Under the pieces are notes generated by a model. The model made no database searches and was not told the origin of the DNA. It worked only from the letters and a program-made list of their open reading frames with translations. Shown piece by piece: positions 2,787-5,697 of a stretch of DNA of 5,697 nt. A program made the translations under genes and the position numbers. The stretch is from Pseudomonadota bacterium. GTDB taxonomy: Bacteria; Pseudomonadota; Gammaproteobacteria; Halothiobacillales; Halothiobacillaceae. Location of the stretch: the NCBI GenBank assembly GCA_021795795.1, contig JAJYPA010000528.1, forward strand, positions 1 to 5,697, given 5' to 3'. Positions within the stretch are counted from its first letter, which is position 1. Each line of letters begins with the position of its first letter.

Positions 2787-3491
2787 TTAGGAAGGGGCGC
2801 TATCTTCCCAGCGGACGGCCCTCAGAAATTCCTCGCGAGTCAAGGAGCAGAGAGCGAACTCGCCGCGTTGAAGCGGGCCTCCCAAGCGAGCTGCGACGCC
2901 AGTGCTGGCAAGGTAGAAGATGTAAGGGCCAGCGTTGAAGAAGACATGGGCGGTAGCGCGTTTCCACTTCTCGATAAATTGCTTGTTCGGTCCCATCCAG
3001 TGCATGACGGCGAATTCCTTGCCATCGAGATTGATGACACGCGATTTGAAATCGAGCGACATGCTGAAGTAGGTTCCCAAAAACGAACTTTCGCTGTGGA
3101 TGTGGATCAGCCAGAACATCCGATGCTCGCGCCGATAGAAGGCCTCTCGTGCGTTTCGCTCATCCTCGCTGATCGAAGAGTGCTGCAGTTCAAGAACGGT
3201 TGCGCGCGGTGTGCCGCTACCGACTAGGACGTCAGCTCGGTGAAGTTCTCCCGTTGCCAAGTCGCGCAGAGCGATCTCGCGGAAGGACATATCGAAGAGT
3301 TCTTTCCAACCGAGGTGCCATGGCCCTTCAGACTCGCTCCACGGATCGCAGTCGCCCGCTTTATGCCGCCAGTGGGGCGTGTTCTCGACAGGCATCACTG
3401 CGGTCAGCAGGCCACCGCAGTCACGGCAGGTTGTCCGCTCGCCCTTCGCGACAGGTGCGCGCTTTTGATCGCCGATCCAGGCATAAAGCAC
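2787..3491 (-). CDS. CoiA-like nuclease with zinc-ribbon-type N-terminus
   Basis: Member of the competence CoiA-like family, which carries a PD-(D/E)xK-type nuclease fold. The role of these stand-alone proteobacterial members is unknown, and the name does not prove involvement in DNA uptake. The 234-aa protein opens with Cys22/Cys25 (CRDCGG) and His40/His43 (HWRH), a likely metal-binding site. It continues with ESEGPWHLGWKELF (53-66), containing the family's conserved E/H/K positions, then HRADV (Asp87) and LELQHS (Glu101, Gln103), which fit the catalytic D...ExQ pattern, then an R...FY segment near 115-119. The start is GTG at 3491, preceded on the minus strand by AAGGA nine bases upstream. 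An in-frame TAA, the stop of the preceding gene, lies 12 bp upstream and rules out a longer product. It is the last gene of a leftward cluster and is intact, unlike its neighbour. It converges on the methyltransferase gene. Confidence 0.8.
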   Translation of the reverse strand: MLYAWIGDQKRAPVAKGERTTCRDCGGLLTAVMPVENTPHWRHKAGDCDPWSESEGPWHLGWKELFDMSFREIALRDLATGELHRADVLVGSGTPRATVLELQHSSISEDERNAREAFYRREHRMFWLIHIHSESSFLGTYFSMSLDFKSRVINLDGKEFAVMHWMGPNKQFIEKWKRATAHVFFNAGPYIFYLASTGVAARLGGPLQRGEFALCSLTREEFLRAVRWEDSAPS

Positions 3492-3503
3492 GTCTACGGT
3501 TCC

Positions 3504-3836
3504 TTAGGCGTCAGCGGCCGGCAAACGCAGCTTTCCTCGACCGACGCGTACAGCGTCGACGAGCCAGGTTTTGCCTGGCAGTCGGCTCGAGAAGAGACTG
3601 GGCTTAGGACCGACCGCCGGCTTCTTGAAGACTGCGATCCGCTGGTAGTCGGCGCTTGCCAGCCACGTCCGTCCGTCTCCTTCGTCGGTGACGATCCGAT
3701 AAAGGCCAGCAGGCGGGGGGAGCATCAAAATCGAGCAGGCGCTTATAGCGTTCGACCGACCATTTCTGGATGCCACCGCCGCCGCAACCGATAGGTAGAC
3801 GCGATGATGCTGATCAAGCACACGCGCTGGAGACAT
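3504..3836 (-). pseudogene. Small unknown gene, apparently frameshifted twice
   Basis: A 110-codon frame runs from ATG 3836 to TAA 3504, but the true coding signal seems to change frame inside it. From about 3800 to 3720 the uninterrupted frame has rare codons (AGA, ATA). The neighbouring frame instead gives GGGIQKWSVERYKRLLDFDAP with common codons. At the run of six G on the plus strand (3715-3720) the signal returns to the first frame and continues as PPPAGLYRIVTDEGDG and on to GKLRLPAADA. The alternative frame has no start and is closed by a TGA at 3816-3814, so the simplest reading is one lost base near 3813-3786 and one extra C in the C-run, leaving the ends in phase. This may be a real mutation or an assembly error. 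The product is not recognised. It sits 12 bp before the CoiA-like gene and 19 bp after the 109-aa gene, which suggests one operon. Confidence 0.55.
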
Positions 3837-3855
3837 TCATGGCGAACGGAGCAAT

Positions 3856-4185
3856 TCAGGCGAGCATGGGCTCGTCGCCGGCTCCCCGCTGGGCGCGCTG
3901 ATCCTTGATAATCGCGCGCGTTTGCTTGGCCGTTAAAGGGGCTTTGGTTTTCGAGTCTTCATAGAGATCGCCATACGCCAAGACTTTGGCAGCGGTATAG
4001 CGCTTGCCATTTGGGCTGTTTTTCGTCATTTGCAATGCGATGACTTCGGGATCAACGTCTTCTTCTAGCATACGGCCGGCGCGTTCGACAGCGGAGCCTG
4101 CTCGCGACGCCGGGCTTGAGATTTTTTCAATGAGATCGGCAGCACCGTCAGCGACGGTGCCCAGGACGTTATTGGATTTCGGCAT
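3856..4185 (-). CDS. Unknown 109-aa protein, first gene of the leftward cluster
   Basis: I do not recognise this protein. The start is the ATG at 4185 (MPKSNNVLGTVADG), because AGAAGGA lies eight bases upstream on the minus strand. A longer frame up to 4263 exists, but its extra residues are arginine-rich, lack a ribosome site and run towards the IS end. The protein is soluble and charged, with no signal peptide or membrane segment. An Ala-rich amphipathic N-terminal half (residues 7-45) is followed by DVDPEVIALQM and NGKRYTAAKVLAYGDLY, a spacing that could form a small helix-turn-helix-like unit. The tail is basic, then acidic (KAPLTAKQTRAIIKDQRAQ, then GAGDEPMLA). It ends 19 bp before the broken gene and is probably co-transcribed with it and with the CoiA-like gene. 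A regulatory or accessory role for that set would be a guess. Confidence 0.7.
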   Translation of the reverse strand: MPKSNNVLGTVADGAADLIEKISSPASRAGSAVERAGRMLEEDVDPEVIALQMTKNSPNGKRYTAAKVLAYGDLYEDSKTKAPLTAKQTRAIIKDQRAQRGAGDEPMLA

Positions 4186-4253
4186 GGTTAGAGTCCTTCT
4201 AAAAGCCCATCGAGCGGGCATAGGTTGGTCATTACGCGGAAGACACTTTTTTA

Positions 4254-4283
4254 ATTGTGCCACTCGTGACCGGCGTCTATCAA
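4254..4283 (-). promoter_or_regulatory. Candidate leftward promoter with -35 inside the IS end
   Basis: Reading the minus strand, TTGATA (4283-4278) is followed after 18 bases by CACAAT (4259-4254), a moderate sigma-70-like pair about 70 bp before the start at 4185. The -35 element would lie in the terminal region of the IS3-family remnant and the -10 outside it or at its edge, the classic geometry of a hybrid promoter formed by insertion. The -10 matches only four of six consensus bases, so this is a suggestion only. Confidence 0.3.
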
Positions 4284-4499
4284 GGTAGTCGCGTCTCCCA
4301 TTTTCTAAGCCGCCTTTTTATCCTGTCGCTGCGGGTTCAGATCTACCGCACCGACGGGTGTCCAATTGCGTGTGCCGCCTGACCAGCGGGCAGGATTTCT
4401 CGCCTTGGCCGCCTCATAGAGCGTATGGCGTTTCGCCAGCAACGCATGATCTTCGCCCGGTGACGCTGGGCCGGGGGCGGTCAAGCGTCCGTATTGATC
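4267..4499 (-). mobile_element. 3' remnant of an IS3-family insertion sequence
   Basis: This is the distal end of an IS3-family element, lying on the minus strand. It contains the last 64 codons of the transposase and a short non-coding tail. The tail, read on the plus strand, starts TGACCGGCGTCTATCAAGG at 4267 and is the likely terminal inverted repeat: it begins with TG and lies about 40 bp from the stop codon. The other end of the element is missing. At 4493-4499 the sequence passes directly into a truncated integron attC site, so the 5' part was deleted or recombined away. The exact terminus is inferred, since no partner repeat is present to align with. Confidence 0.65.
4305..4499 (-). 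pseudogene. C-terminal fragment of IS3-family transposase (OrfB)
   Basis: The minus-strand frame from 4499 to the TAG at 4307-4305 gives 64 residues that include ALLAKRHTLYEAAKARNPA, RWSGGTRNWTPVG and AVDLNPQ. The RWSG-TRNW-P-G-V-LNP pattern is a familiar C-terminal signature of many IS3-family transposases, downstream of the DDE integrase core. The core itself, with its D, D and E residues, is absent, so the fragment is inactive. There is no start codon or ribosome site. An in-frame TAA at 4508-4506, which is the stop of the upstream cassette gene, separates the two frames by only two codons. Confidence 0.85.
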
Positions 4500-4511
4500 G
4501 CATTGTTAGAC
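4493..4511 (-). other. Truncated integron attC site (R'' end only)
   Basis: On the minus strand GTCTAAC (4511-4505) fits the attC outer box RYYYAAC, and the following AATGCGATCAA continues like the start of known attC sites (compare the aadA type, GTCTAACAATTC). The stop codon TAA of the 272-aa gene lies within this box, as is common in gene cassettes. The remainder of the site (inner boxes and the GTTRRRY recombination core) is gone, replaced by the IS3-family remnant. The left end of this cassette can therefore no longer be cut by the integrase. Confidence 0.6.
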
Positions 4512-5324
4512 ATCATCGAATTTTCGCGCTCTTGCAAGGGATTCCTCCGTGACGCAACCACATGTCTTGTGATGCTCAGCAGTCCACCAACGTCTGCATA
4601 GCTTGGGTTGAAAAGGAAAGCGATCAAACTTCGGCTCGCAGCGATTTGAGGAACGAAGTGCATCTCGCACGACAGCATAACCGTCTACGCTAGCCATGTA
4701 CTTCTCTTTCCATGCCTCAGCGCGTGCATAGTCATAGGATGGGATATCAAAGCCGAGTGCCGCAAGCGAGTGCAAGAACTGTTGGTCGTTGATGAGAATG
4801 ATCTCATGAGTATTAGGCCGAGGATTTAGATAGTTCCAACCAAAGAGCCAATACGGGTACCTCGTTCCTTGCACCTCGTGGAAGCTAGCCACATACGTCG
4901 CGATTGCGTTCACGACAGACATTGGCTCAACTTCGAACAGCCGTTCATAGATGTTGTGCCCAACAGTCTTCGGATGTGTTAAGTCACCGCGAACATCATT
5001 ACAGAACTCGATTAACTCGATAACGTCTGACGCCACTGATGTTGGGCGACCAATTATCTCAGCAGGCCACGTCTTAAGTTTCTTGATAAAGCGACCGGTA
5101 CGGAGTTTTTCAAATATCGCGTCGTCATCCTTGCTCGGGGTCAGATGCGAACGCATTTGCTGGTTCAGAAAAGCTTCGAGTGCTGCAATCCCAAAGTACA
5201 GGGAAGCTGTGAGATGGTGTGACTTCTCCATGTCAGTTGGTGCTTCGATTGCCGCATTAGCCTCACGAAACAGAGAAGAGAAGTTCTGCCACGCCGGGTT
5301 AACTGACCAAGGACCGAGAGCCAT
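4506..5324 (-). CDS. Integron cassette gene, HEPN-like 272-aa protein
   Basis: Probable all-helical HEPN-type protein; the family's Rx4-6H motif cuts RNA in many toxins and defence proteins. The first half has SLYFGIAALEAFLNQQM (41-57), similar to the second helix of HEPN domains. About 50 residues later, VIELIEFCNDVRGDLTHP (101-118) places Arg112 and His117 in the Rx4H motif at the expected spot. The C-terminal part (about 150-272) is not recognised but has a cluster of Cys and His (Cys243, His251, His252, Cys255, Cys257) that might bind zinc. The ATG at 5324 is 12 bases after the GTTAGGC core of an attC site and the TAA lies in another attC box, which is standard cassette architecture. No Shine-Dalgarno sequence precedes the ATG. 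Expression would depend on an integron promoter to the right. RNase activity is inferred from the motif, and the residue after Arg is Gly rather than the usual polar residue. Confidence 0.75.
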   Translation of the reverse strand: MALGPWSVNPAWQNFSSLFREANAAIEAPTDMEKSHHLTASLYFGIAALEAFLNQQMRSHLTPSKDDDAIFEKLRTGRFIKKLKTWPAEIIGRPTSVASDVIELIEFCNDVRGDLTHPKTVGHNIYERLFEVEPMSVVNAIATYVASFHEVQGTRYPYWLFGWNYLNPRPNTHEIILINDQQFLHSLAALGFDIPSYDYARAEAWKEKYMASVDGYAVVRDALRSSNRCEPKFDRFPFQPKLCRRWWTAEHHKTCGCVTEESLARARKFDDV

Positions 5325-5336
5325 ATTGTGGAAGAG

Positions 5337-5403
5337 GCCTAACGATAAAATTCAGCCGAGGAGGCGCGTCAGCGCCGATGTCGGCTGGAGTGACTTGTTG
5401 GCT
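5337..5403 (-). other. Integron attC recombination site, complete, 67 bp
   Basis: Read on the minus strand, the site starts with AGCCAAC (5403-5397, outer box R'') and ends with GTTAGGC (5343-5337, outer box R', a perfect GTTRRRY core). Between them CAGCCGA (5387-5381) and TCGGCTG (5359-5353) are perfect 7-bp inverted repeats corresponding to the inner L boxes, enclosing a further GGCGC/GCGCC stem (5376-5372 with 5367-5363). The single strand folds into the long imperfect hairpin that the integrase IntI recognises. It lies one base after the stop codon of the partial gene to the right and 12 bases before the start of the HEPN-like gene. This is where an attC must be between two cassettes. Size and layout resemble sites of proteobacterial integrons. 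The R'' box deviates at one base from the consensus. Confidence 0.85.
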
Positions 5404-5404
5404 T

Positions 5405-5697
5405 TCACTTCGGAACCTCAAGACCCTTTGCCTCAAAGGGGGTAAGGGTATTTATGACAGCCAATCCGTGGGTGAAAGCCTCGACGGCTTTTCCACGATT
5501 TTTAAATCGCCCTGAATGCACCACTTCATTGCGATGATCATTCAATAACTGGATATGCTTCTCTTGAATTTTCTTAATGTTTGTCCATGTCTCGCGTTGC
5601 CGCGCTATTGGCTGGACAAGCCGTAAAAACTTCCCAAAAATTCCGCTTGTATCCTTCAGGAGGTTGTCTACAAATCCCCATGGCAGATGATATTCGT
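5405..5697 (-). CDS. Integron cassette gene, C-terminal part of a second HEPN-like protein
   Basis: An open minus-strand frame enters at the right edge and ends at TGA 5407-5405, giving 96 visible residues; the start is outside the window. The key feature is LLNDHRNEVVHSGRF, which contains a canonical HEPN motif RNxxxH (Arg55, Asn56, His60 of the visible part). It follows a basic helical stretch (RETWTNIKKIQEKHIQ) and precedes another helix (KAVEAFTHGLAVIN), the helix-loop-helix setting expected for a HEPN active site. The protein ends EAKGLEVPK and its stop codon is one base before the attC R'' box, so it belongs to the next upstream cassette in the array. Length and N-terminal domains are unknown. 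A role as an RNase toxin or defence factor is inferred from the motif, and non-catalytic HEPN proteins also exist. Confidence 0.7.
   Translation of the reverse strand, partial: EYHLPWGFVDNLLKDTSGIFGKFLRLVQPIARQRETWTNIKKIQEKHIQLLNDHRNEVVHSGRFKNRGKAVEAFTHGLAVINTLTPFEAKGLEVPK

Follow-up and report, generated by a model that had tools for sequence, protein, structure and literature searches.

The integron integrase folds the bottom strand of an attC site into a hairpin and recombines it at the G/TT of the R′ box. An attC site has R″ and R′ core boxes with AAC and GTT, an L″/L′ stem and extrahelical bases within an imperfect hairpin. A cassette has one gene, as a rule without a promoter of its own, and one attC site, the gene starting shortly after the R′ that precedes it; in a complete integron intI, attI and Pc adjoin the array. 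CALIN, which are clusters of attC sites without an integrase, have at least two such sites. The stretch described here, contig JAJYPA010000528.1, was read over its whole length of 5697 bases (the window), position 5697 being its right edge. At 4485-5697 it most probably carries the left, broken end of an integron cassette array on the minus strand, in which the attC site at 5337-5403 joins two cassettes, each encoding a predicted HEPN RNase. The array, whose features are all on the minus strand (Table 1), shares with described arrays the core boxes, the two single-base bulges of the attC hairpin, a single gene for each attC site, a stop codon in or beside R″ and the next start codon a few bases after R′. 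Unlike described arrays and CALIN, it has one complete and one half attC site, intI, attI and Pc are not seen within the window, and its end is broken at the remnant of an insertion sequence (IS).

HEPN proteins in integron cassettes have already been described: Anantharaman et al. (2013, PMC3710099) propose that they are RNases inducing dormancy under stress. The integron cassette HEPN family represented by PDB 3JRT resembles the present pair in that it, too, consists of HEPN-type proteins on integron cassettes. The two proteins of the window would add two further HEPN-like families, named by none of the family libraries searched, to the cassette pool, and with them the 2013 proposal of growth-arrest RNases in cassettes becomes testable on new genes. 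The parts of the literature on integron cassettes and phage defence that were covered (Vibrio and Xanthomonas among others, with few subscription journals) contain nothing on these two families.

Table 1. Features of the cassette array and of its left junction
Feature	Coordinates	Strand	Details
Complete attC site, 67 nt	5337-5403	-	R″ AGCCAAC 5403-5397, R′ GTTAGGC 5343-5337; covariance models R1 and R2, DNA fold
Cassette gene, 272 residues, R112-x4-H117 in a predicted HEPN-like domain at the N terminus (residues about 7-153)	4506-5324	-	start 12 nt after R′
Upstream cassette gene, 3′ part encoding the last 96 of the 156 residues of P0121; predicted small HEPN domain with R115-N-x3-H120	5405-5695	-	
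5′ half of second attC site (R″ GTCTAAC 4511-4505, spacer, L″), 3′ half lost	4485-4511	-	R2, position weight matrix
3′ remainder of an IS3-family (ISPpu4-like) element that seems to extend to the end of the element, abutting the half attC site	4270-4476	-	blastn, pairwise alignments

The complete attC site

Two covariance models were used to locate attC sites. R1 was built from 25 sites hand-picked from scans of other genomes, none of them from the window, with longer, weaker or off-strand candidates omitted; its alignment has compensatory changes in 11 of 17 pairs. Since some of the R1 sites had been found through similarity to the attC site or protein of the window, R2 was made as an independent model. 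It consists of the 17 R1 sites that lie on five contigs with intI over the cut-off, and excludes loci L065, L066 and L001. L065 and L066 came from a similarity search of 57 genomes of the order of G208, which gave short matches in three genomes, two of them to the attC site.

Both models match 5337-5403 on the minus strand and on no other, R1 with 34.1 bits (E = 1.1e-7, the next match in the window having E = 5.8) and R2 with 28.8 bits (E = 3.1e-6, next match E = 4.8). Each covers model positions 1-60 of 60, with the bulged positions 16 and 23 present and two non-standard pairs marked. The single-stranded DNA from 5403 to 5337 is predicted to fold into one hairpin with a minimum free energy of -14.4 kcal/mol (z = -3.43), and none of 200 shuffled sequences is as stable; with a few flanking bases included (5335-5408), z is -2.42 and 7 of 200 shuffles are as stable. 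R″ has AGCCAAC where the canonical box is RYYYAAC, and it pairs with R′ via a bulge. By sequence and predicted structure, 5337-5403 read on the minus strand is an attC site. In recombination, which would take place at the G/TT of R′, an integron integrase would use the folded hairpin form of the bottom strand of this site; that strand is the plus strand of the window. A single attC site can be called in this way with a model built from independent arrays.

The positions of the genes relative to the boxes are those of a cassette array. Between R′ and the ATG (5324) of the 272-residue gene are exactly 12 bases (5336-5325). This gene ends within the R″ box of its own, half-preserved attC site, the TAA stop (4508-4506) lying inside GTCTAAC. 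On the other side, a single base separates the TGA stop (5407-5405) of the upstream gene from R″ (5403) of the complete site. This upstream frame is open at the right window edge, and is arranged end to end with the 272-residue frame on the same strand. A scan for promoter-like sequences gave two matches where 1.1 are expected, which is at chance level. An integrase profile made from the L002 integrase and 11 more with 53.8-76.4% identity to it (12 sequences) finds no integrase-like frame in the window, and the L010 integrase, used as a positive control, was recovered in the same run. The initial annotation, made from the letters alone, had placed both genes in minus-strand integron cassettes because of a complete attC hairpin between two same-strand genes, a GTTAGGC core 12 bases before an ATG and a stop codon inside a GTCTAAC box, and had seen no integrase. 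All of these observations hold: the minus-strand covariance search with our own models recovers the hairpin, and the cassette assignment is reinforced by the independent model and by a 53% identical relative directly behind an attC site elsewhere.

Beyond the window, a search of 17 loci (184,809 bases) with R2 at E ≤ 1 gives 14 sites, none of which lies in the four plasmid loci among them or in L072 and L073. R1 at E ≤ 1 finds no site in five (L055, L058, L060, L062 and L063) of 12 intI-bearing contig stretches, and attC rows are present in some intI-bearing contigs of the order of L001. Rfam at a permissive threshold has no attC family match (best E = 0.25). The plasmid collection holds no convincing match to the attC site (one record, E = 0.7) and the viral contigs neither an exact attC match nor a relative. 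Sites closely similar to that of the window occur in two genomes of one order, at 5845-5911 of L065 and 7166-7232 of L066. The 14-kb stretches of these two loci contain no integrase frame; in G430, the genome of one of them, an integron integrase scoring above the cut-off (458 bits) is encoded on another contig.

The 272-residue protein

Altogether 291 relatives of the 272-residue protein were found. One that is 99% identical is named from an Acidithiobacillus metagenome-assembled genome (MAG) and occurs on five contigs, and one relative in UniRef is named HEPN domain-containing protein. In alignment A3, which consists of 52 of the 120 listed homologues together with the window protein and that of L001 (54 sequences), Arg112 and His117 are invariant in all 54; alignment A2 has one further homologue and L011 in addition to the A3 set. 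The predicted helix at 99-116 ends in this R-x4-H motif. The C-terminal half (155-272) has its own invariant residues, Trp163, Cys229, Cys243, Trp246, Trp247, His251 and Cys255.

Genome searches gave relatives in 2 of 369, 1 of 20 and 3 of 398 genomes, four different genomes in all. The closest of these is 53% identical and is encoded in L001, which belongs to a gammaproteobacterial MAG (G001). It sits directly behind an attC site (R2, 24.6 bits, E = 0.0014), and its TAA stop is also within a box, GCCTAAC; neither R1 nor R2 at E up to 1 finds a complete attC site behind it, and the genes that come next are those of a SIR2-like protein and of a helicase. An integron integrase (497 bits, cut-off 265) is encoded in G001 on a different contig from the relative, and integron integrases scoring above the cut-off are present in 12 of 20 genomes of the order to which G001 belongs. 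The G090 relative, at 32% identity, has an attC site about 2 kb upstream and an Abi_C gene nearby, while the site adjoining it is weak (5.0 bits, E = 8.4). In G811 (L072, 9257-10192) the relative stands alone directly behind a tRNA-Sec gene and no attC site was found. No attC site better than E = 5 is present in G638, which has a short match. The 272-residue family uses cassettes without depending on them, since the L001 relative lies behind an attC site and the G811 relative has none. In the plasmid collection, tblastn detects no relative of this protein, and there is no near match to the whole window.

The 156-residue protein

The 96-residue frame at the right edge is the end of a 156-residue protein, P0121, that occurs on nine contigs. 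Arg115, Asn116 and His120 are invariant in nine of nine sequences, and the predicted helix at 97-121 carries the R-x4-H motif at its end. Two plasmid relatives have weak, sub-threshold Pfam matches over the motif, to HEPN_Swt1 (E = 0.0044) and HEPN_RiboL-PSP (E = 0.0077). Plasmid records that encode relatives number 11; an attC scan of four of them found no site.

In two plasmid loci (L074 and L075, both at 3474-5410) the gene for the relative overlaps by 4 bases a gene for a 467-residue protein annotated as HEPN, possibly as a two-HEPN operon; a neighbouring gene in L074 has a borderline Mrr_cat match. The 467-residue partner is not the equivalent of the 272-residue protein (best BLASTP E = 1.1 for the one of the two that was compared). 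In Paraburkholderia fungorum a further relative is located beside Qat anti-phage genes (L076, 355-3965).

The HEPN fold and its possible function

HEPN proteins are marked by an invariant R-x4-6-H motif that closes a core helix and by a fold of four helices. In the structural comparison with VIA-align, most of the top matches of both protein models are HEPN proteins. Both cassette proteins are predicted to have HEPN-like folds, more firmly so for the 156-residue protein, whose predicted model has the four-helix HEPN fold. 3JRT is matched by neither protein's profile at E up to 1 and is not among the 50 structural matches listed. For this reason the window proteins may belong to HEPN families other than that of 3JRT, even though the absence of a match is not proof. 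Compared with the HepT/MntA (HEPN-MNT) toxins, the HEPN domains of Csm6 and AbiV, they differ in several respects. The identity in the structural matches is just 6-15%, no antitoxin gene is recognised beside them within the window, and the 272-residue protein has an extra conserved C-terminal half.

Our best guess is that both proteins are growth-arresting or defence RNases. Both gene products would act as HEPN RNases whose catalytic pair is the helix-terminal R-x4-H motif, and such RNases would most likely stop translation under stress or phage attack. It is rather unlikely, though not negligibly so, that the cassette proteins are not RNases, the HEPN-like fold serving for binding alone and the work being done by the conserved C-terminal half of the 272-residue protein. 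The seven invariant Trp, Cys and His residues of that half speak for such a division of labour, as does the structural comparison, which barely reached past residue 206. However, relatives with identities as low as 30-32% still keep the R-x4-H pair without exception, as expected of a catalytic motif, which favours the RNase assignment.

The two adjacent cassettes, each with a different HEPN protein, might conceivably form a two-part defence or growth-arrest module made of separately mobile cassettes. The 156-residue protein would then partner the 272-residue one, in likeness to the two plasmid relatives of the 156-residue protein whose genes overlap that of a second, unrelated HEPN-annotated protein, but this arrangement is doubtful.

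The broken left end

The initial annotation had also recognised a second attC box at what it took for the distal end of the array. The box is present and the array does end on the left, but there is more than a box and the end is not a tidy one. The 27 nt from 4511 to 4485 score 26.9 against a position weight matrix of the attC 5′ half, where the complete site scores 19.8, and neither score is reached in any of 200 simulated windows (Markov simulations with the window's own base transitions, 200 runs for each half-site score). When the sequence is cut at 4485, R2 gives the half site 20.0 bits with the match truncated at its 3′ end; the E value of this run is favourable because the cut was placed after seeing where the match ends. 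The best match to the attC 3′ half is in the complete site, at 5337-5360 (22.1; 0 of 200 simulations). To the left of 4485 there is no convincing 3′ half, and the runner-up, 3915-3938, is on the plus (wrong) strand and is reached by 14 of 200 simulations. The second attC site is severed at about position 4484.

The DNA adjoining this half site is that of an IS. By blastn it is 71-74% identical to 13 plasmid records, and in four of the 13 the matching segment carries the annotation of an IS3-family transposase; in both of the two matched records that were inspected, the match is inside an IS3 transposase gene. Pairwise alignments to IS3-family DNA extend over 4270-4467 and 4345-4476. The remnant shares with ISPpu4 a homologous end region and about 130 bases at 71-74% DNA identity, and differs from it in that the window keeps just about 205 bases of the 3′ end. 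As judged from these alignments, the left end of the array is a broken attC site joined to the tail of an IS3-family element. The integron integrase cuts at R′ and not at such a position, so the junction between the interior of an attC site and the interior of an IS is probably not an integrase product. A deletion or rearrangement would have fused the attC site of the 272-residue cassette to the inside of the IS3-family element, with loss of the attC 3′ half. Because this half of its own site is lost, the cassette probably can no longer be excised by normal attC × attC recombination. What looks like a terminal attC box can be the remaining half of a site after an IS-linked rearrangement, and such a rearrangement would lock the last cassette in position.

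Could the second site instead be a whole, degenerate attC site at 4437-4511, which has found a chance partner, GATCATGCGTTG, in the IS DNA, may still fold and recombine, and leaves the 272-residue cassette mobile? The second-best R1 match in the window is a full-length one at exactly these positions, and the predicted DNA fold has CAATGCGATC base-paired to GATCATGCGTTG. This explanation is nevertheless quite improbable. The R1 score is just 5.4 bits (E = 5.8), R2 run on the whole window at E up to 10 gives no match there, and 58 of 200 shuffles of the segment fold as well. Moreover, the would-be 3′ half falls within the segment alignable to IS3-family transposase genes, and the would-be R′, GTTGCTG, is without the RRRY pattern.

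The severed site one gene further along also bears on the complete site. An alternative reading takes the hairpin at 5337-5403 not for an attC site but for a common stem between co-directional genes, related to transcription or due to chance. Its being the lone complete site, its non-canonical R″ and the want of an integrase in the window might suggest this, but the reading is barely credible. Against it are the half site, the score from R2, which was built without the hairpin, the two boxes and the two single-base bulges, all in register, the match to one strand only, and a terminator scan of 4200-5697 that has its single match at 5425-5448 on the plus strand (one found, 1.5 expected) and none at the site.

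Other features of the window

To the left of the IS remnant, a 110-residue frame at 3504-3836 on the minus strand is similar to the C terminus of HamB, a helicase (PADLOC, E = 2.9e-6, profile positions 1095-1161 of 1163), and is perhaps, to go by this similarity, the remnant of a Hachiman-type defence gene. A 234-residue frame at 2787-3491, on the same strand, has a weak, sub-threshold match to a CoiA nuclease-like domain (E = 0.0034). The plus strand at 2-2455, open at the left edge, encodes a type ISP or type IIG restriction enzyme-methyltransferase (Type_ISP_C, E = 7.3e-76; PADLOC REase_MTase_IIG, E = 1.2e-238). Shortly after this restriction gene, at 2673-2726 on the plus strand, are two 19-nt direct repeats, TTTACACGCTGTTTTCCAC and TTTACACGCTGTTTAACAC, whose starts are 35 bases apart.
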